A stretch of DNA of 64,000 nucleotides from Anaerovibrio lipolyticus LB2005 (lineage in GTDB: Bacteria > Bacillota > Negativicutes > Selenomonadales > Selenomonadaceae): positions 124,001-188,000 of the forward strand of contig NZ_JHYA01000002.1 in NCBI RefSeq assembly GCF_000621545.1. The letters run 5' to 3'. Below are positions 1-6,486 of the stretch, piece by piece; the first letter of the stretch is position 1, and every line of letters begins with the position of its first letter. The translations under genes were made by a program, and so were the position numbers. The notes beneath the pieces were generated by a model, which was given only the letters and a program-made list of their open reading frames with translations, did not search any database and was not told the origin of the DNA.

Positions 1-101
1 TCTGTACCGGGGAAGAGGCGGCAGAATGTATAGAGTGTCTTAAAAGAAGGGTAAATAAAATCGGTTGCAGTGTTGTGTGTGACCGGGGAGATTATAGGTG
101 A
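1..101 (+). CDS. hydE: [FeFe]-hydrogenase maturase HydE, 3' end only
   Basis: Only the last 32 codons or so are inside the window, in frame from base 3 to the TGA at 99-101. HydE is a radical SAM enzyme that helps make the dithiomethylamine-bearing 2Fe subcluster of the H-cluster. The visible tail contains Cys, seven residues, Cys, two residues, Cys. That is the CX7CX2C ligand set of the accessory cluster near the HydE C-terminus, and it is followed by a typical ending with D-R-G-D-Y. The stop overlaps the GTG start of hydG (GTGA at 98-101), which suggests translational coupling. The SAM-binding domain lies outside the window, so the call rests on this motif and on the hydG-hydF neighbours. 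Confidence 0.85.
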   Translation, partial: CTGEEAAECIECLKRRVNKIGCSVVCDRGDYR

Positions 102-1525
102 TTCAAATGTATGATATGAAATCTATGAAGGCTGAGGAGTTTATTTCCGATGAGGAAATTCAGGCAACTCTAAGGTATGCTGACGAAAACAAAGATAATA
201 TGGAGGTCCTTGATGCCATTATTGCCAAGGCAAAATTGGGGAAGGGCCTCAGCCATCGTGAGGCATCTGTGCTTTTGGCCTGTGACAATGAGGAAAAGCT
301 CCAGGAGATCTATGATTTGGCAAGACAGATTAAGGAGGATTATTACGGTAACCGTATAGTATTATTTGCTCCCTTATATTTGTCCAATTATTGTGTAAAT
401 GGCTGTCTTTATTGTCCATACCACGCAAAGAATAAACATATCAGCCGCAAGAAGCTGACTCAGGATGAAATACGTCGTGAGGTAATGGCTTTGCAGGATA
501 TGGGACATAAGCGTCTGGCAATTGAACTTGGTGAGGATCCTGTAAATAATCCTATTGAATATGTACTGGAGTCTATTAATACCATTTACAATATCAAGCA
601 CAAGAATGGTGCTATACGCCGTGTTAATGTTAATATTGCGGCAACCACTGTGGAGAATTACAAAAAGCTCCATGATGCGGGAATTGGCACATATATACTT
701 TTTCAGGAGACTTATAACAAAAAGTCTTATGAGGAGCTTCATCCAACGGGACCAAAGCATGATTACGCATATCATACTGAGGCCATGGACAGAGCCCAGG
801 AGGGCGGAATTGATGATGTGGGCTTAGGCGTCCTCTTTGGGCTTGAGGGATATCGTTATGAGTTTGCGGGACTTTTGATGCACGCAGAGCATTTGGAGGC
901 AGTTCATGGCGTTGGGCCGCATACCATTAGTGTACCAAGGGTTAAGAAGGCAGATGACATTGATCCGGAAGCCTTTGATAACGGTATCAGTGATGAAATC
1001 TTTGAGAAGATTATTGCCCTCATTCGTGTGGCAGTGCCTTATACGGGAATGATTATTTCCACCCGTGAAGGCAAGACTGTCCGTGAAAAGGCATTGGAGC
1101 TGGGGATTTCCCAGATAAGTGGTGGATCCCGTACCAGTGTTGGCGGTTATGTAGAGGAGGAGCCGGAGGATGATAACTCTGCTCAGTTTGATGTAAGTGA
1201 CCGACGTACTCTGGATGAGGTGTTGAACTGGCTTATTACCCTTGGCTATGTGCCAAGCTTCTGCACTGCATGTTATCGGGAGGGACGTACTGGCGATCGG
1301 TTCATGTCCCTCTGTAAGAGCAAACAGATATTGAATTGCTGTCATCCAAATGCCCTTATGACCTTAAAGGAGTATTTGGAGGATTATGCTAGTGAGGATA
1401 CCAAGAAAAAGGGCATGGCAATGATTGAGTCGGAGCTGAAGAAAATTCCAAATGAAAAGGTTCGTCAGATTGCAGCCCAGCATTTAGCCGAAATAAGTGA
1501 AGGTAAGAGGGACTTTAGGTTTTAA
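98..1525 (+). CDS. hydG: [FeFe]-hydrogenase H-cluster radical SAM maturase HydG
   Basis: HydG is a radical SAM tyrosine lyase that cleaves tyrosine to supply the CO and CN ligands of the H-cluster, as an Fe(CO)2(CN) synthon. The SAM-cluster motif CX3CX2C is at about residues 99-106 (C-V-N-G-C-L-Y-C). The C-terminal region has the second-cluster motif CTAC followed about 22 residues later by a third Cys. At 475 aa the length is normal for the family. GTG at 98 has a GGGGAG ribosome site at 85-90 and overlaps the hydE stop. An ATG at 107 is the alternative and gives the N-terminus (M-Y-D) more usual in homologues. hydF follows one base after the stop, so hydE-G-F form one operon. Confidence 0.97.
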   Translation: MIQMYDMKSMKAEEFISDEEIQATLRYADENKDNMEVLDAIIAKAKLGKGLSHREASVLLACDNEEKLQEIYDLARQIKEDYYGNRIVLFAPLYLSNYCVNGCLYCPYHAKNKHISRKKLTQDEIRREVMALQDMGHKRLAIELGEDPVNNPIEYVLESINTIYNIKHKNGAIRRVNVNIAATTVENYKKLHDAGIGTYILFQETYNKKSYEELHPTGPKHDYAYHTEAMDRAQEGGIDDVGLGVLFGLEGYRYEFAGLLMHAEHLEAVHGVGPHTISVPRVKKADDIDPEAFDNGISDEIFEKIIALIRVAVPYTGMIISTREGKTVREKALELGISQISGGSRTSVGGYVEEEPEDDNSAQFDVSDRRTLDEVLNWLITLGYVPSFCTACYREGRTGDRFMSLCKSKQILNCCHPNALMTLKEYLEDYASEDTKKKGMAMIESELKKIPNEKVRQIAAQHLAEISEGKRDFRF

Positions 1526-1526
1526 T

Positions 1527-2747
1527 ATGGCAGAGTTAAATTCAACACCAAATGCCAATAGACTTCACATAGGAATCTTTGGTAGAACAAATAGTGGTAA
1601 ATCTTCTTTGATAAATCTTCTGACGGGGCAAAAAACATCTATTGTGTCTGAGGTGGCAGGTACTACCACAGACCCGGTCTATAAGGCCATGGAAATAAGC
1701 CCTTTGGGAGCCTGTGTTATCATCGACACTCCGGGTATAGAGGATAATTCCTCTTTAGGAGCACAGCGTTTGGTGAAGACCAAGCTGGCCATGGAAAAGA
1801 CGGACGTGGCAATTCTGGTTTTTGCGGCTAATTTCCAAGGCAATTTTGAGGAAGAATATAAGCTGCTGGAAATTTTTCAAAAGAAAAAAGTGCCTGTCCT
1901 ATGTCTTGTTAATTCCTTTGGGAAGATTTTGGGGGAAGACAAGTTAAAGGATACAATATCCGAAAGGCTTCATGGCGACAGCAATGCACTTCTGGTGGCA
2001 GATTGTAGTGAAGCTGGTGGGGCCGATAATCGAAGCAACATCATAGGGGCCTTGTCCAAATTGATGCCAGAGGATTATGATGAAGAATTTATTACAGGTG
2101 GTCTGGTAAGGGAAGATGATCTTGTGCTGTTGGTAATGCCTCAGGATATTCAGGCTCCTAAACGACGCTTAATTCTTCCTCAGGTTCAGACTATAAGAGA
2201 GCTTCTTGACAGAAAATGTACTGTGGTTTCCACTACAACAGATAAGCTGGAAGTCACATTGTCCCGATTAAATGAGGCACCTCAGCTAATTATTACTGAT
2301 TCCCAGGCCTTTAAATACGTTTATGAGCATAAGCCAAAGAATAGCAGACTGACCTCTTTTTCCGTGCTCTTTGCAGCTTATAAAGGGGATTTAAAATATT
2401 ATGTTGAGGGGGCTCGATTTATTGACAGCCTTAATGAAAAATCCCGAGTCCTGATTGCTGAGTGCTGTACCCATGCACCTCTTACTGAGGATATAGGCAG
2501 GGTGAAGATACCACGTCTCCTTCGCAAACGCTTTGGGGAAGGCTTGCAGGTGGACGTGGTCAGTGGTACGGATTTTCCAGATGTTCTTACAAAGTACGAT
2601 CTGGTTATTCAGTGCGGGGGCTGTATGTTTAACCGACGGTATATACTGTCAAGAATTGATAAGGCAAGAATGGTATCTGTGCCAATGACCAACTATGGTG
2701 TGGCTATTGCACATCTTACTGGTATTTTGGATAAGATTGTTATGTAG
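1527..2747 (+). CDS. hydF: [FeFe]-hydrogenase maturation GTPase HydF
   Basis: HydF is the GTPase scaffold that receives the 2Fe precursor from HydE/HydG and loads it into apo-hydrogenase. The N-terminal G domain shows the P-loop G-R-T-N-S-G-K-S-S and the G3 motif D-T-P-G. The usual NKxD motif appears to be replaced by V-N-S-F-G-K. The C-terminal cluster domain has C-T-H and, some 50 residues later, Q-C-G-G-C; many family members have His where this one has Gln. ATG 1527 lies just after the hydG stop. A GTG at 1497 would add ten residues inside hydG and is less likely. The protein is 406 aa, the normal length. Confidence 0.96.
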   Translation: MAELNSTPNANRLHIGIFGRTNSGKSSLINLLTGQKTSIVSEVAGTTTDPVYKAMEISPLGACVIIDTPGIEDNSSLGAQRLVKTKLAMEKTDVAILVFAANFQGNFEEEYKLLEIFQKKKVPVLCLVNSFGKILGEDKLKDTISERLHGDSNALLVADCSEAGGADNRSNIIGALSKLMPEDYDEEFITGGLVREDDLVLLVMPQDIQAPKRRLILPQVQTIRELLDRKCTVVSTTTDKLEVTLSRLNEAPQLIITDSQAFKYVYEHKPKNSRLTSFSVLFAAYKGDLKYYVEGARFIDSLNEKSRVLIAECCTHAPLTEDIGRVKIPRLLRKRFGEGLQVDVVSGTDFPDVLTKYDLVIQCGGCMFNRRYILSRIDKARMVSVPMTNYGVAIAHLTGILDKIVM

Positions 2748-2899: not shown

Positions 2900-4390
2900 A
2901 TGAGTAACAAGATGTCGCGGCGCAAATTTTTAAAGGTTGTGGCCGGATCAGGCGTCCTGGGATTTGGAGTAATGGCTTCTGGCTGTAAAGGGAAGCCCTC
3001 CGGGGGCGATGGTTGGGTGTCCAGCCAGTATGAGGGAAAAGGCGATTTCCCTGTCAACTTAAAGGGGCGCGTGGCCATCAGTGCAACCAATCCGTCCATT
3101 GAACGTGATGACGAAAAATGCATTTTATGTGGTCAGTGCGTAGATGCCTGCAAAAATGTGATGGGTGTATATGGAAACTATCCATTGCCACTGAAGCAGG
3201 AGATTGCCTGCGTCGGCTGTGGTCAGTGCGTTATGCAATGTCCATCTGGTGCAATTACGGAAAAGAGCCATGTGCGCAAGGTACTGGACGCTCTTGATGA
3301 TGATACCAAGCACGTAGTAGTTCAGACTGCTCCAGCCACAAAGGTTTCCTTGGGTGAAGAATTCGGTATGCCACAGGGAACCAGTGTGGGCAAGAAGATG
3401 GCAGGCGCCTTAAAGGCAGCAGGCTTCGATTCAGTATTTGATACCTGTTTTGCTGCAGATTTGACCATTATGGAGGAGGCTTCTGAATTTGTGCATCGTC
3501 TCACCAAGAAAAAGGATGAGATACCGCATCTTACCTCCTGTTGTCCTGGATGGGTAAAATACTGTGAGTATTTCTATCCTGAATTAATGCACAATCTGTC
3601 CACCTGTAAGTCACCGCAAAATATGCTGGGGGCAACCATTAAGTCATTCTATGCGGATAAGATGGGCATTAATCCTTCAAATATTGTAAATGTTTCAATA
3701 ATGCCATGTACTGCCAAGAAGTTTGAGGTGGGCCGTGAGGAGCTGGAGGTTGATGGCCAGCAGGATATGGATTATGTTCTCACTACCAGAGAGCTGGCAG
3801 TATTATTGAAGCATAAGGGAATTGATTTAAATACTGTAGCTGAGGCGGAATATGATTCTGTTCTCGGTGAGTCCACTGGTGCAGGTCGTATTTTCGGTGC
3901 CACCGGTGGTGTTACTGAGGCCGCAGTTCGTACAGCTTATTATTTGGCAACTGGTTCTAATCCACCAGCTGATTTGCTGGATTGGAAGCCTATTCGTGGT
4001 ATGCAGTCTGTTAAGGAAGCCGTTGCCAGTATCCCGGGGGTAGGCGCCGTTAATATTGCAGTATGTCATGGCCTGGAAAATGCTCGTCAGCTTCTCGAGG
4101 GCATCAAGGCCACGGGCAGTAGCAAGTGGCAGTTTATTGAGTTCATGGCTTGCCCAGGCGGTTGCATTGGTGGCGGTGGTCAGCCAAAATCCATGGATGC
4201 AGTGGAAGCCAAGAAAAAACGCATTGAGGCCATCTACAAGGAAGACACTGGGGCCGCAAAGCGTTGTAGCCATGATAATGCAGAAATTCAGTCCATCTAT
4301 AAGGACTTCTTCGGCAAGCCTCTCAGCGAAAAGGCAGAGAAATACTTGCATACAACCTTTGTCAATCGGCACGACCGGTTGTTTGATTGA
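2900..4390 (+). CDS. hydA: Tat-exported [FeFe] hydrogenase catalytic subunit, probable lipoprotein
   Basis: This enzyme catalyses reversible H2 oxidation at the H-cluster. Residues 1-30 form a twin-arginine signal (S-R-R-K-F-L-K at 6-12), then a hydrophobic stretch and a lipobox-like M-A-S-G-C with Cys29. Two [4Fe-4S] sites follow, starting at about C74 and C104 (CxxCxxCxxxC each). The H-cluster motifs are T-S-C-C-P-G-W (C214), M-P-C-T-A-K-K (C270) and M-A-C-P-G-G-C (C418, C422). At 496 aa this is a compact M2-like enzyme with no NADH-binding domain. GGGGAG at 2887-2892 is seven bases before the ATG. The two downstream genes encode HybA- and HybB-like electron carriers, so a periplasmic enzyme reacting with the quinone pool is inferred. 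The direction of H2 metabolism cannot be read from sequence. Confidence 0.95.
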   Translation: MSNKMSRRKFLKVVAGSGVLGFGVMASGCKGKPSGGDGWVSSQYEGKGDFPVNLKGRVAISATNPSIERDDEKCILCGQCVDACKNVMGVYGNYPLPLKQEIACVGCGQCVMQCPSGAITEKSHVRKVLDALDDDTKHVVVQTAPATKVSLGEEFGMPQGTSVGKKMAGALKAAGFDSVFDTCFAADLTIMEEASEFVHRLTKKKDEIPHLTSCCPGWVKYCEYFYPELMHNLSTCKSPQNMLGATIKSFYADKMGINPSNIVNVSIMPCTAKKFEVGREELEVDGQQDMDYVLTTRELAVLLKHKGIDLNTVAEAEYDSVLGESTGAGRIFGATGGVTEAAVRTAYYLATGSNPPADLLDWKPIRGMQSVKEAVASIPGVGAVNIAVCHGLENARQLLEGIKATGSSKWQFIEFMACPGGCIGGGGQPKSMDAVEAKKKRIEAIYKEDTGAAKRCSHDNAEIQSIYKDFFGKPLSEKAEKYLHTTFVNRHDRLFD

Positions 4391-4405
4391 GGAGGGGTGA
4401 GATAG

Positions 4406-5203
4406 ATGGCTGTATTAGTAGATATTACCAAATGTATTGGTTGTGAAGGCTGTACTGTTGCCTGCAAGCGATATAACAATTTGAATTTCAAGGCAAAGCC
4501 AAGAAATGTAAAGGATGACGGCAATGTGGAGCTGGATGACAATCGTTGGACTGTTATTCAGGAGTTCCACGGTGAAAAAAATGATAAGCTGAGATTCGTT
4601 AAGAAGCAGTGCCTCCATTGTAAGGAGCCTGCCTGTGCATCAGCTTGTTTCTCCAAGGCGATTCAGAAGGATGAAAAAACAGGAGCTGTTGTTTATTATC
4701 CGGATTTGTGCGTAGGTTGTCGTTATTGTCTGGTGGCTTGTCCATATTCTATTCCTAAGTATCAATGGAACGAGCAGTTCCCACAGGTATCAAAATGCCA
4801 GATGTGTTCGGAGCGGGTAAGCAAGGGGGATGCTCCTGCCTGTGTATCTGCTTGCACCACTGGTGCCCTTATGTCAGGGGATAGGGATGAGCTGCTTAAA
4901 AAGGCCCATGAGATTATCAATTCTGATAGTCGTTATATTAACCATGTATATGGTGAGCATGAGGTTGGTGGCGCCGAGTGGCTCTATATCTCAGATGTTC
5001 CGTTTGAGGAATTGGGCTTCAAGGATGTCTCCAATGTACCTGTTACCAGCTATACCAAGAGCTATCTCTCCAAGGTTCCTGGCCTTGCCGCTTGCTGGGC
5101 ATTGTTCCTGTCAGGAATCGCATTCTACAATTATCGTGTGGACAAGAATAGAAATCAGATTCACGATCCTCACGATAATGACGATCAGGATAAGGAGGGC
5201 TGA
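4406..5203 (+). CDS. HybA/DmsB-like four-cluster ferredoxin subunit with C-terminal anchor
   Basis: This is an electron-transfer subunit that would pass electrons between the hydrogenase and the membrane subunit encoded next. Four Cys-rich groups are visible: C-I-G-C-E-G-C-T-V-A-C near residue 10, C-L-H-C with A-C-A-S-A-C, C-V-G-C-R-Y-C-L-V-A-C, and C-Q-M-C with A-C-V-S-A-C. Together they make 16 ligands for four [4Fe-4S] clusters, as in HybA, NrfC and PsrB. Near the C-terminus a hydrophobic helix (about residues 223-243) precedes an acidic tail and probably anchors the protein. It has no Tat or Sec signal of its own, so co-export with the hydrogenase is inferred. GGAGGGG at 4391-4397 sets the ATG. 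Confidence 0.9.
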   Translation: MAVLVDITKCIGCEGCTVACKRYNNLNFKAKPRNVKDDGNVELDDNRWTVIQEFHGEKNDKLRFVKKQCLHCKEPACASACFSKAIQKDEKTGAVVYYPDLCVGCRYCLVACPYSIPKYQWNEQFPQVSKCQMCSERVSKGDAPACVSACTTGALMSGDRDELLKKAHEIINSDSRYINHVYGEHEVGGAEWLYISDVPFEELGFKDVSNVPVTSYTKSYLSKVPGLAACWALFLSGIAFYNYRVDKNRNQIHDPHDNDDQDKEG

Positions 5204-5205
5204 GC

Positions 5206-6411
5206 ATGAAGGTATATAAGTGTTTTAGAATTTTGGGCTGGGACTTCACTATAACTCCCGTCCGATTTGTACTAACAGGATTAGTAGCCTTAATGGTAGC
5301 CACAGTTGTCCTTAGGCTTCTGACAGGTTTCCAGTATGTAACCAACCTGACAGATGAGACTCCATGGGGCATGTGGATTGCCTTTGATGTAATGTGTGGC
5401 GTTGCCCTTGCTGGTGGTGGCTACTCCACAGCCCTGCTGGTAAGTATATTCCAGTATAAGGAATTCCACGTTGTGGCTCGCGGCGCCCTGCTTACATCAT
5501 TGCTTGGCTACATCCTGGTTATGGCTGGTCTGTTCCTGGATATCGGTCAGTGGTTTAACTTTTGGCGGCCTTTCGTGTCATGGGGTTATACATCGGTACT
5601 CTTTGAAGTATTTTGGTGTATTTCCATTTATACCACTGTTTTGAGCATTGAGTTCTTTGAGATTATTACTGAACGAATACTCAGAAAGAAGCTGCATCGT
5701 TATATCGTGAAGATTTTGCCGGTTCTTGTAGTAATCGGTCTTATCTTCCCAGTAATGCATCAGTCCTCCTTGGGTGGTTTGTTCCTGATTATGAAGGAGA
5801 GAATGTTCCCACTGTGGTGGAGTGAATTCCTGCCACTTTACTTCCTCTTATCTTCCTTCTTTATCGGTTCTGCCATGGTTACTATAGAAACCACATTGGC
5901 AAAGACAGCTTATGGCCATGAGATTCCACATAATATTATGTTAAAGCTGACCCGTGTAGGTGCTGGCATGATGTTTGTGTATCTCCTGCTGAAGCTCTAT
6001 GATCTCTTTGAAAAGCATGAATGGAATTATGTATTCCAGGGTACTCTTCAGAGCAATATGTATTGCGTGGAAATGCTGTTTGGTATACTGATTCCTCTGG
6101 TTATAATTGTCAGTCCTCTCAGCAAGAAACGGGGCGGCCTTCTCACTTATGCTACTCTTACGGTATTTGGTGTAATTCTTAACCGCCTTAATTGTGTATT
6201 TACCTCCATGTATGAGTCCGGCTCTTACTTCCCGGGTATTGGCGAAATTATCGTAAGTGTTGGTCTTATTTCCATGGGTGTGCTGATTTATTGCTTCTTG
6301 GTTGAGAACTTCAATATTATTGGTAATGAACGGGCTGTTCAGGTTAAAATCGATAAGGATAAGGATATTAAGAACCTTATCTGGGCTCTGCTTCGTACCA
6401 AGAGACGTTGA
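5206..6411 (+). CDS. HybB/NrfD-family integral membrane subunit (quinone-reactive)
   Basis: This polytopic membrane protein has about ten hydrophobic segments and matches the NrfD/PsrC/HybB family, which exchanges electrons between a periplasmic iron-sulfur subunit and menaquinone. The stretch with N-L-T-D-E-T-P-W-G-M-W-I-A-F-D followed by A-G-G-G-Y is the HybB-type signature near the first helices. At 401 aa the length is close to E. coli HybB. It starts two bases after the preceding stop with GGAGGG just upstream, and a strong terminator follows, so the three genes form one unit. HybB partners are normally found with [NiFe] hydrogenases; here the catalytic subunit is [FeFe]. Confidence 0.92.
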   Translation: MKVYKCFRILGWDFTITPVRFVLTGLVALMVATVVLRLLTGFQYVTNLTDETPWGMWIAFDVMCGVALAGGGYSTALLVSIFQYKEFHVVARGALLTSLLGYILVMAGLFLDIGQWFNFWRPFVSWGYTSVLFEVFWCISIYTTVLSIEFFEIITERILRKKLHRYIVKILPVLVVIGLIFPVMHQSSLGGLFLIMKERMFPLWWSEFLPLYFLLSSFFIGSAMVTIETTLAKTAYGHEIPHNIMLKLTRVGAGMMFVYLLLKLYDLFEKHEWNYVFQGTLQSNMYCVEMLFGILIPLVIIVSPLSKKRGGLLTYATLTVFGVILNRLNCVFTSMYESGSYFPGIGEIIVSVGLISMGVLIYCFLVENFNIIGNERAVQVKIDKDKDIKNLIWALLRTKRR

Positions 6412-6444
6412 TAGATGTAGCGTAATTTCATAATGTGACTTTTA

Positions 6445-6486
6445 GGGCTGTGCCAAAATTGATGAGATTTTGGCGCAGCTCTTTTG
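6445..6486 (+). terminator. Rho-independent terminator of the hydrogenase operon
   Basis: A 15-base stem (GGGCTGTGCCAAAAT at 6445-6459 with ATTTTGGCGCAGCTC at 6467-6481, one G-T pair and one mismatch) closes a seven-base loop and is followed by TTTT. It ends the operon of the three hydrogenase complex genes. Confidence 0.88.

Follow-up and report, generated by a model that had tools for sequence, protein, structure and literature searches.

A candidate quinone-linked, exported [FeFe]-hydrogenase of Anaerovibrio lipolyticus and its relatives in the Bacillota

In this study, we analysed a 64,000-nucleotide stretch of the genome of Anaerovibrio lipolyticus LB2005 (positions 124,001 to 188,000 of contig NZ_JHYA01000002.1; hereafter the window), whose left end raises the question of what an [FeFe]-hydrogenase with an export signal does beside two proteins resembling HybA and HybB of Escherichia coli hydrogenase 2, a [NiFe] enzyme. 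Our answer, which rests on sequence and predicted structure and to which we give a probability of about 75%, is that the three gene products form one membrane complex, a periplasm-facing H2:menaquinone oxidoreductase that in this organism would most likely drive fumarate reduction. The coordinates, reading frames and order of the three genes (the trio) were re-checked and are correct; positions below are those of the window, where all features described lie on the plus strand.

Three subunits of a candidate membrane complex

The first gene, hydA (2900..4390), encodes a group A [FeFe]-hydrogenase with a fused small-subunit domain and a predicted export signal, as judged from Pfam, NCBIfam and an alignment of 19 rows. 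Group A membership is indicated by the TIGR02512 profile (468.5 bits, cut-off 406) together with the H-cluster motifs TSCCPGW (3533-3553), MPCTAKK (3701-3721) and MACPGGC (4145-4165), which start at residues 212, 268 and 416 and span 3533..4165; Pfam Fe_hyd_lg_C matches with 311 bits. CxxCxxCxxxC patterns and Pfam mark two accessory [4Fe-4S] clusters (C74-C84 and C104-C114; 3119..3241), and the Fe_hyd_SSU domain (PF02256, 73.9 bits) lies at 4205..4369. HydA is not an NADH-dependent group A6 enzyme, as its score against NF040763 (585.6 bits) is below the curated cut-off of 765; the match begins at profile position 132 and the N-terminal part is missing. At its N terminus the protein carries a twin-arginine (RR) motif, SRRKFLK (residues 6-12; 2915..2935), in which a motif scan places RRKF at residues 7-10, and a lipobox-type Cys29 (ASGC; 2984..2986). 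Among the trio HydAs of the 19-row alignment Arg7, Gly28 and Cys29 are invariant and Arg8 is present in at least 90%.

The hydrophobic stretch of this signal is weak, with a mean hydropathy of 1.47, and the authors describing the enzyme of Desulfotomaculum ruminis predict an uncleaved signal, yet they still place the enzyme outside the cell. One might propose on these grounds that the HydA signal is non-functional, that the enzyme is cytoplasmic and that HybB is oriented the other way. We consider this highly improbable, as Arg7 and Cys29 are invariant over 19 diverse relatives, the genome encodes TatC of the twin-arginine translocation (Tat) system, and the RR motif tracks HybA/HybB neighbours. 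The motif is present in 56 of 57 trio HydAs with a complete N terminus versus 3 of 76 non-trio HydAs, the latter chosen by similarity rather than randomly and counted after removal of 14 rows close to contig edges and 7 that were incomplete; with double fetches retained the figures are 59/60 versus 3/76 (Fisher p 1e-33, for a sample that is not random). The lone trio HydA without the motif (L219) runs into a contig end.

Separated from hydA by 15 bp, the second gene (4406..5203) encodes a HybA/HmcB/FdnH-like iron–sulfur subunit without a signal peptide of its own (Pfam, NCBIfam, alignment). An alignment of 22 rows shows no variation at any of the 16 cluster cysteines, and a single hydrophobic segment (residues 221-239; 5066..5122) is the predicted C-terminal membrane anchor, relatives having a hydrophobic tail too; cysteine patterns and hydropathy are thus consistent with four [4Fe-4S] clusters and an anchor. 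An RRxF signal before the first cluster was found in none of 59 trio HybAs; E. coli HybA has one.

The third gene (5206..6411) follows after 2 bp and encodes a HybB/NrfD-like membrane subunit, predicted to be quinone-reactive from Pfam, NCBIfam, an AlphaFold model and fold comparison. The Pfam NrfD score (PF03916, 57.9 bits, cut-off 25.8) and an NrfD-type fold place the protein in the NrfD superfamily. Hydropathy alone gives nine helices; the AlphaFold model, built from a 31-row alignment (mean predicted local distance difference test score 81.7), has ten long helices before residue 370. As no solved structure was related to the protein by sequence at E 0.001, its fold was compared instead, and the best matches were chain C of four alternative complex III structures (Z 30.8-32.0); chain C of the menaquinone-bound polysulfide reductase matched with Z 17.0 over 235 residues. 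By bits, the best NCBIfam family of this subunit is HybB. HmcB and HmcC of sulfate reducers are also high-ranking names, HmcB being the best for the iron–sulfur subunit (270 bits) and HmcC the second for the membrane subunit (263 bits), but both scores are below the respective cut-offs of 420 and 550.

An earlier note, made from the letters of this DNA, had described a Tat motif, a lipobox-like Cys29 and all H-cluster motifs on an [FeFe]-hydrogenase, followed by a four-cluster ferredoxin and a ten-helix NrfD/HybB protein and preceded by maturation genes, and all of this is borne out here. Its proposal of a periplasmic H2:menaquinone oxidoreductase also gains support as probable, from the motifs, the fold, TatC and the menaquinone enzymes described below.

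Gene linkage in the Negativicutes and other Bacillota

A synteny survey across the class, which the earlier note had called for, was run on 380 Negativicutes genomes from 102 genera. At E 1e-20, HybB-like matches were present in 44 genomes and 16 of the 102 genera, and 15 of the 16 genomes of the window's genus have the gene; at most three or four candidates were scored per genome in this and the following survey, which makes the copy counts minimum values. For 46 of the 47 matches, a HydA of this family is encoded nearby on the contig (place lists compared by eye, with L245), including four cases (G113, G119, G271 and G095) in which the HydA match lacks its N terminus and the signal is unseen. 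The sole unlinked match is in genome G108, in which HydA was not found.

The arrangement extends beyond this class. Among the matches listed, trios were present in metagenome-assembled genomes of Desulforudis, Gracilibacteraceae and Peptococcaceae. Of 398 genomes drawn evenly from the Bacillota, 41 gave a HybB-like match at E 1e-50, and a HydA profile search of this set gave at least 34 HydAs in 27 genomes matching from the signal region with 688-921 bits (at most three candidates scored per genome; one HydA, cut by a contig end, matches from profile position 27). Below these stand L290 at 676 bits and then scores of 616 and less. By hand count, HybA and HybB genes lie downstream of 29 of the 34, L211 having a short HybB frame with a stop inside; of the remaining five, L228 has a split HybA, L286, L287 and L289 lack both HybA and HybB, and L288 lacks HybB.

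Tat-type HydAs without adjacent HybA and HybB, such as those of L286, L289 and L055, the last beside a molybdoenzyme, speak for a different division of labour, in which the exported HydA would hand its electrons to a different carrier in the periplasm or membrane, with HybA and HybB serving mainly as an anchor. This appears improbable to us, as the three genes stay closely linked in many genera, all 16 cysteines of HybA are invariant, which an anchor would not need, and the A. lipolyticus genome has no NrfD protein other than the HybB-like protein of the window.

Direction of electron flow in A. lipolyticus

For the assembly, topology, direction and proton coupling of the complex we infer the following. 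HydA would be matured by HydEFG and folded in the cytoplasm, where it would bind the HybA-like subunit before export by the Tat system. Since only HydA has a signal, the HybA-like subunit would ride along with it and be anchored by its C-terminal tail. Such export of a pre-assembled pair sharing one signal would fit the RR motif on HydA and its absence from trio HybAs, and for some Tat substrates export as a heterodimer, of which one partner bears the signal, has been described (PMC10924467). HydA itself may be tethered by the lipobox cysteine or by an uncleaved signal helix. Electrons from H2 would pass from the H-cluster through the two HydA clusters and the four clusters of the HybA-like subunit to menaquinone in the HybB-like subunit, and menaquinol would then most likely drive fumarate reduction, with H2 and fumarate giving succinate. 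At low H2, release of H2 driven by the proton motive force would be possible as the reverse reaction. The trio may be electrogenic; an electrogenic redox loop in sulfate reduction is named in the title of a paper that concerns the Qrc complex (PMC6303296).

The rest of the genome provides a setting for this scheme. The TatC gene adjoins menaquinone-pathway genes, namely those for a menaquinone decarboxylase (TIGR03701, 640 bits, cut-off 496) and a UbiA-type prenyltransferase. Elsewhere a fumarase gene is followed by genes for the cytochrome b, flavoprotein and iron–sulfur subunits of a succinate dehydrogenase/fumarate reductase, which, given the fermentative setting, we infer to act as a fumarate reductase. 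Of the two acceptors suggested at the outset, fumarate is therefore credible; nitrite was rejected, as the NrfA profile PF02335, which matched its E. coli control, had no match in this genome (the search did not extend to nitrate, dimethyl sulfoxide or other terminal reductases). A [NiFe] enzyme was likewise rejected, no [NiFe] catalytic subunit being found in the genome beyond NuoD-like proteins: the two NiFeSe_Hases matches cover only profile positions 1-67 and 1-70, the first scoring best as NuoD and the second, which is below the cut-off, sitting in a Nuo-like cluster as judged by eye only. A GGDEF diguanylate cyclase carries the one other [FeFe] domain (L254, 4800-6599, minus strand, contig C15 of this genome, G000), which is probably a sensor; the fusion suggests an H2- or redox-sensing cyclic-di-GMP switch.

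The simplest reading of these data is H2 oxidation to menaquinone that feeds fumarate reduction. Its main rival is the same complex running in the opposite direction, as a menaquinol:proton oxidoreductase that releases H2 by reverse electron transport, and we rank it so because Hyd2 of Syntrophomonas wolfei has been modelled in this way. E. coli hydrogenase 2 runs in the H2-venting direction during glycerol fermentation, and the trio is the only catalytic-type hydrogenase found in the A. lipolyticus genome, so that any H2 made by this organism would probably come from it. On the other side, making H2 from quinol is energetically unfavourable at ordinary pressures of H2, and the genome has the fumarate reductase/succinate dehydrogenase genes adjoining fumarase; on balance we regard H2 release as a real but unlikely possibility. 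S. wolfei Hyd2ABC is a three-subunit, membrane-bound [FeFe]-hydrogenase with in-gel activity (PMC5101538, PMC3582634, PMC5626996), predicted to face outwards, believed to be linked to the menaquinone pool and modelled as menaquinol-linked (PMC5101538, PMC3582634). Its transcripts rise about 20-fold during syntrophic growth on butyrate and its authors model electron flow from menaquinol to H2; its role, H2 production in syntrophy, is unlike the one we propose for the A. lipolyticus trio.

Several observations weigh against an H2-oxidizing, quinone-linked complex. The residue at position -3 of the HydA lipobox is Ala, not Leu, and both partner proteins score below the NCBIfam cut-offs for the families after which we name them (HybA, NF008134, 213.5 bits versus 263; HybB, NF008133, 266.4 bits versus 450). 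In the fold comparison of the membrane subunit, cytochrome bd subunits reach Z 14.6-20.6, near or above polysulfide reductase, and the fold by itself is therefore no proof of quinone chemistry. The membrane partner of S. wolfei Hyd2, compared here by description only, was published as a b-type cytochrome (PMC3582634), and NCBIfam names the flavoprotein and iron–sulfur subunits near the fumarase succinate dehydrogenase. Finally, the Tat-type HydAs of L055, L082, L286, L287 and L289 lack adjacent HybA and HybB genes, that of L288 lacks HybB and that of L228 has a split HybA, so that the catalytic unit can probably work without these neighbours.

A shared membrane module and the place of the trio among known enzymes

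How did an [FeFe] enzyme come to be joined to a membrane module of this kind? The earlier note had envisaged a module swap that placed an [FeFe] catalytic subunit on the relay of a [NiFe] Hyb enzyme. To the HybB of E. coli the window protein is 31% identical, to two Bacillota HybBs adjoining [NiFe] genes 40-44%, and to one HybB adjoining a selenocysteine-type formate dehydrogenase 54%. These values and the score below the HybB cut-off do not favour a relay derived from [NiFe] Hyb, and with 46 of the 47 HybB-like matches of the class beside HydA, the swap is not supported as it was worded.

Partners were assigned by rule to 91 HybB-like proteins of at least 350 residues, E. coli HybB included: 60 adjoin an [FeFe] HydA, 14 a molybdopterin enzyme and four a [NiFe] enzyme, and for 13 the partner is another protein or unseen. 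One molybdopterin case (L191) and the three [NiFe] cases other than E. coli (L213, L226 and L227) were checked with Pfam. All 14 molybdopterin loci have a catalytic gene interrupted by an in-frame TGA, each time within the conserved context HARL*HS, a pattern that a selenocysteine formate dehydrogenase would show. Counted by the starred branches of the HybB tree, the [FeFe] label would have to change at least nine times, and a single clade of [FeFe]-partnered HybBs, that is, one origin, was rejected (approximately unbiased test, p 7e-52), a test to be read with its rule-based labels, its long branches (4.5 for E. coli HybB) and the possibility that homogenization within genomes mimics swaps. 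The 31 rows of the window's class form one group (100/99), every one with an [FeFe] partner, and for this reason the association is an old one in the Negativicutes and not a recent graft. The nearest rows without an [FeFe] partner are those of formate dehydrogenases, at a fork that is not strongly supported (83/97).

A single genome, G685, has three HybB paralogues that are 80.5-97.5% identical. The HybBs beside its formate dehydrogenase and its [NiFe] enzyme are 97.5% identical, whereas the HybAs at these two loci are only 58% identical; the HybB beside HydA is 82% identical to that of the [NiFe] enzyme. In a HydA tree, a quick one without bootstrap from which the other-type rows of loci above L110 and any Desulfovibrio HydA were left out, all 61 Tat-type HydAs fall on one side of a branch and 42 other group A HydAs on the other (Shimodaira–Hasegawa-like approximate likelihood ratio test 97). 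The scattered HybB labels, the near-identical HybBs of G685 and this split point to one catalytic HydA lineage paired with a membrane module that has changed hands or been homogenized between operons. In the Bacillota, the catalytic partner of such a HybA- and HybB-like pair is a Tat-type HydA, a selenocysteine-type formate dehydrogenase or, in a few cases, a [NiFe] enzyme, and partners have changed repeatedly. The formate dehydrogenases have a homologous membrane module but a molybdopterin catalytic subunit. E. coli hydrogenase 2 (HybOABC) shares with the window an iron–sulfur HybA with a hydrophobic C-terminal tail and a HybB-type membrane subunit; it differs in its [NiFe] catalytic pair, the Tat signal of its HybA and its distant HybB. 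Such a shared module is a natural swap set in which to ask what lets one quinone module accept electrons from three unrelated catalytic subunits.

Genome G588, which we take to be that of D. ruminis, has two trios, and in one of them (L188) HydA, HybA and HybB are 52, 53 and 54% identical to the window proteins; on that assumption we assign the A. lipolyticus trio to the Tat-type, membrane-associated [FeFe]-hydrogenases known from Desulfotomaculum. Tat-type, membrane-associated, multi-gene [FeFe]-hydrogenases have been described in D. ruminis (Desru_3431-3433 and Desru_0447-0445; PMC3569383), and a three-gene enzyme of this kind with a Tat motif in D. gibsoniae (Desgi_0926-0928; PMC4148979). 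Like the window trio, they are encoded by three-gene clusters, have a Tat motif on the catalytic subunit and are predicted to be extracytoplasmic and membrane-anchored; their hosts are sulfate reducers, and in the passages available the partners are not called HybA or HybB. By rough numbering, the position of Desru_0447-0445 disagrees with that of one of the two G588 trios. A membrane-bound Fe-hydrogenase is mentioned in Pelotomaculum (PMC6046458), D. kuznetsovii is described as having four hydrogenases, all of them cytoplasmic (PMC5770442), and the available parts of PMC8924675, PMC3306737, PMC5770442, PMC3551663, PMC9562222, PMC6046458 and PMC5113046 contain no direct match to the trio. Among the matches listed in open-licence PMC articles, by titles and the starts of abstracts, no publication dealt with the trio in Anaerovibrio or the Negativicutes. 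The arrangement has therefore been published before, for Desulfotomaculum and, in the form of a membrane enzyme of three subunits, for Syntrophomonas; new here are the Negativicutes member and its distribution, the signal-less HybA, the single Tat-type HydA group and the shared membrane module.

For the HydAB enzyme of Desulfovibrio we know of no HybA or HybB partner. This enzyme is periplasmic and M2-type, and natural one-chain M2 homologues occur in Veillonella atypica and Solobacterium moorei; unlike the window HydA, it has a separate small subunit (PMC12933642).

By the earlier note's own standard, its reading would fall if the three-gene order were a catalogued hydrogenase subgroup, and this applies by half: though described, the order has no subtype of its own in the accessible text of the 2016 HydDB classification, where group A is divided into A1-A4 according to the gene that comes next and no quinone-linked subtype is named (PMC5037454). 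Subtypes A2 and A3 require a downstream protein with a GltA/GltD-type or NuoF domain, A4 one with the CDD domain HycB, and A1 is the default otherwise (PMC5037454). HydA does not follow the A2/A3 rule, its downstream protein being HybA/HmcB-like (judged with Pfam and NCBIfam, the rule being CDD-based). HybA-like proteins may well trigger HycB, which would misfile the trio as A4, and failing that it would default to A1; a rumen survey using HydDB lists A1 and A2 as H2-producing (PMC6776011). Should the trio prove to be a respiratory uptake enzyme, Anaerovibrio and similar Negativicutes would carry an H2 sink that surveys of this kind misfile as an H2 source or as bifurcating. Tentatively, and with rather less confidence than in the function proposed for the window trio, we suggest that Tat-type HydA trios form a self-contained respiratory subgroup of the group A enzymes, Bacillota-wide and so far uncatalogued, in which one catalytic lineage is combined with an interchangeable HybA/HybB quinone module through repeated exchange of partners. 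In A. lipolyticus it would be the sole catalytic hydrogenase and support H2-driven, possibly electrogenic fumarate respiration, so that the 'fermentative' [FeFe] enzymes of rumen surveys would in part be uptake enzymes.

In the window, the end of hydE, hydG, hydF and the trio follow one another at the left end. The H-cluster maturase HydE (570 bits, cut-off 254.6) is encoded by a gene whose 3' end lies at 1..101, ending at about base 101, with the rest to the left of the window (contig C2 of G000, 123121-124101); the radical SAM maturase gene hydG (98..1525; TIGR03955, 929.5 bits, cut-off 312) and the maturation GTPase gene hydF (1497..2747; TIGR03918, 504.5 bits, cut-off 326) follow. An AT-rich gap of 152 bp separates hydF from hydA. 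A terminator-like hairpin of 17 pairs lies 3' of the operon (6444..6482), called by pattern only; such hairpins are not in excess over shuffled sequence (seven found, mean 6.0).

Some loci outside the window depart from the usual order. In G685 (L228, 309-5713) the trio is broken, with HybA in two pieces around a 461-aa open reading frame on the minus strand; G082 (L041, 6300-15404) has two adjoining trios plus an extra HybB-like gene, and G096 (L047, 2910-5659) a tandem pair of HybB genes. The Tat-type HydA of G300 (L055, 4433-5947) has no HybA or HybB; upstream of it are genes for a molybdopterin oxidoreductase, a DmsB-like iron–sulfur subunit, a match to the nitrate reductase delta (chaperone) family and a rhodanese-like protein. 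An RR motif without a neighbouring HybA or HybB also occurs in the HydAs of L286, L289 and L290, the last without the lipobox cysteine and next to a chemoreceptor gene, and in G749 (L288, 3090-6813) HydA and HybA are followed by an FlpD-like (methyl-viologen hydrogenase delta) protein in place of HybB. In A. lipolyticus itself a second Tat-type signal, SRRNFIK, was read by eye on an apparent phosphoesterase encoded about 4.5 kb to the left of the window (L003, 6163-7470, G000).

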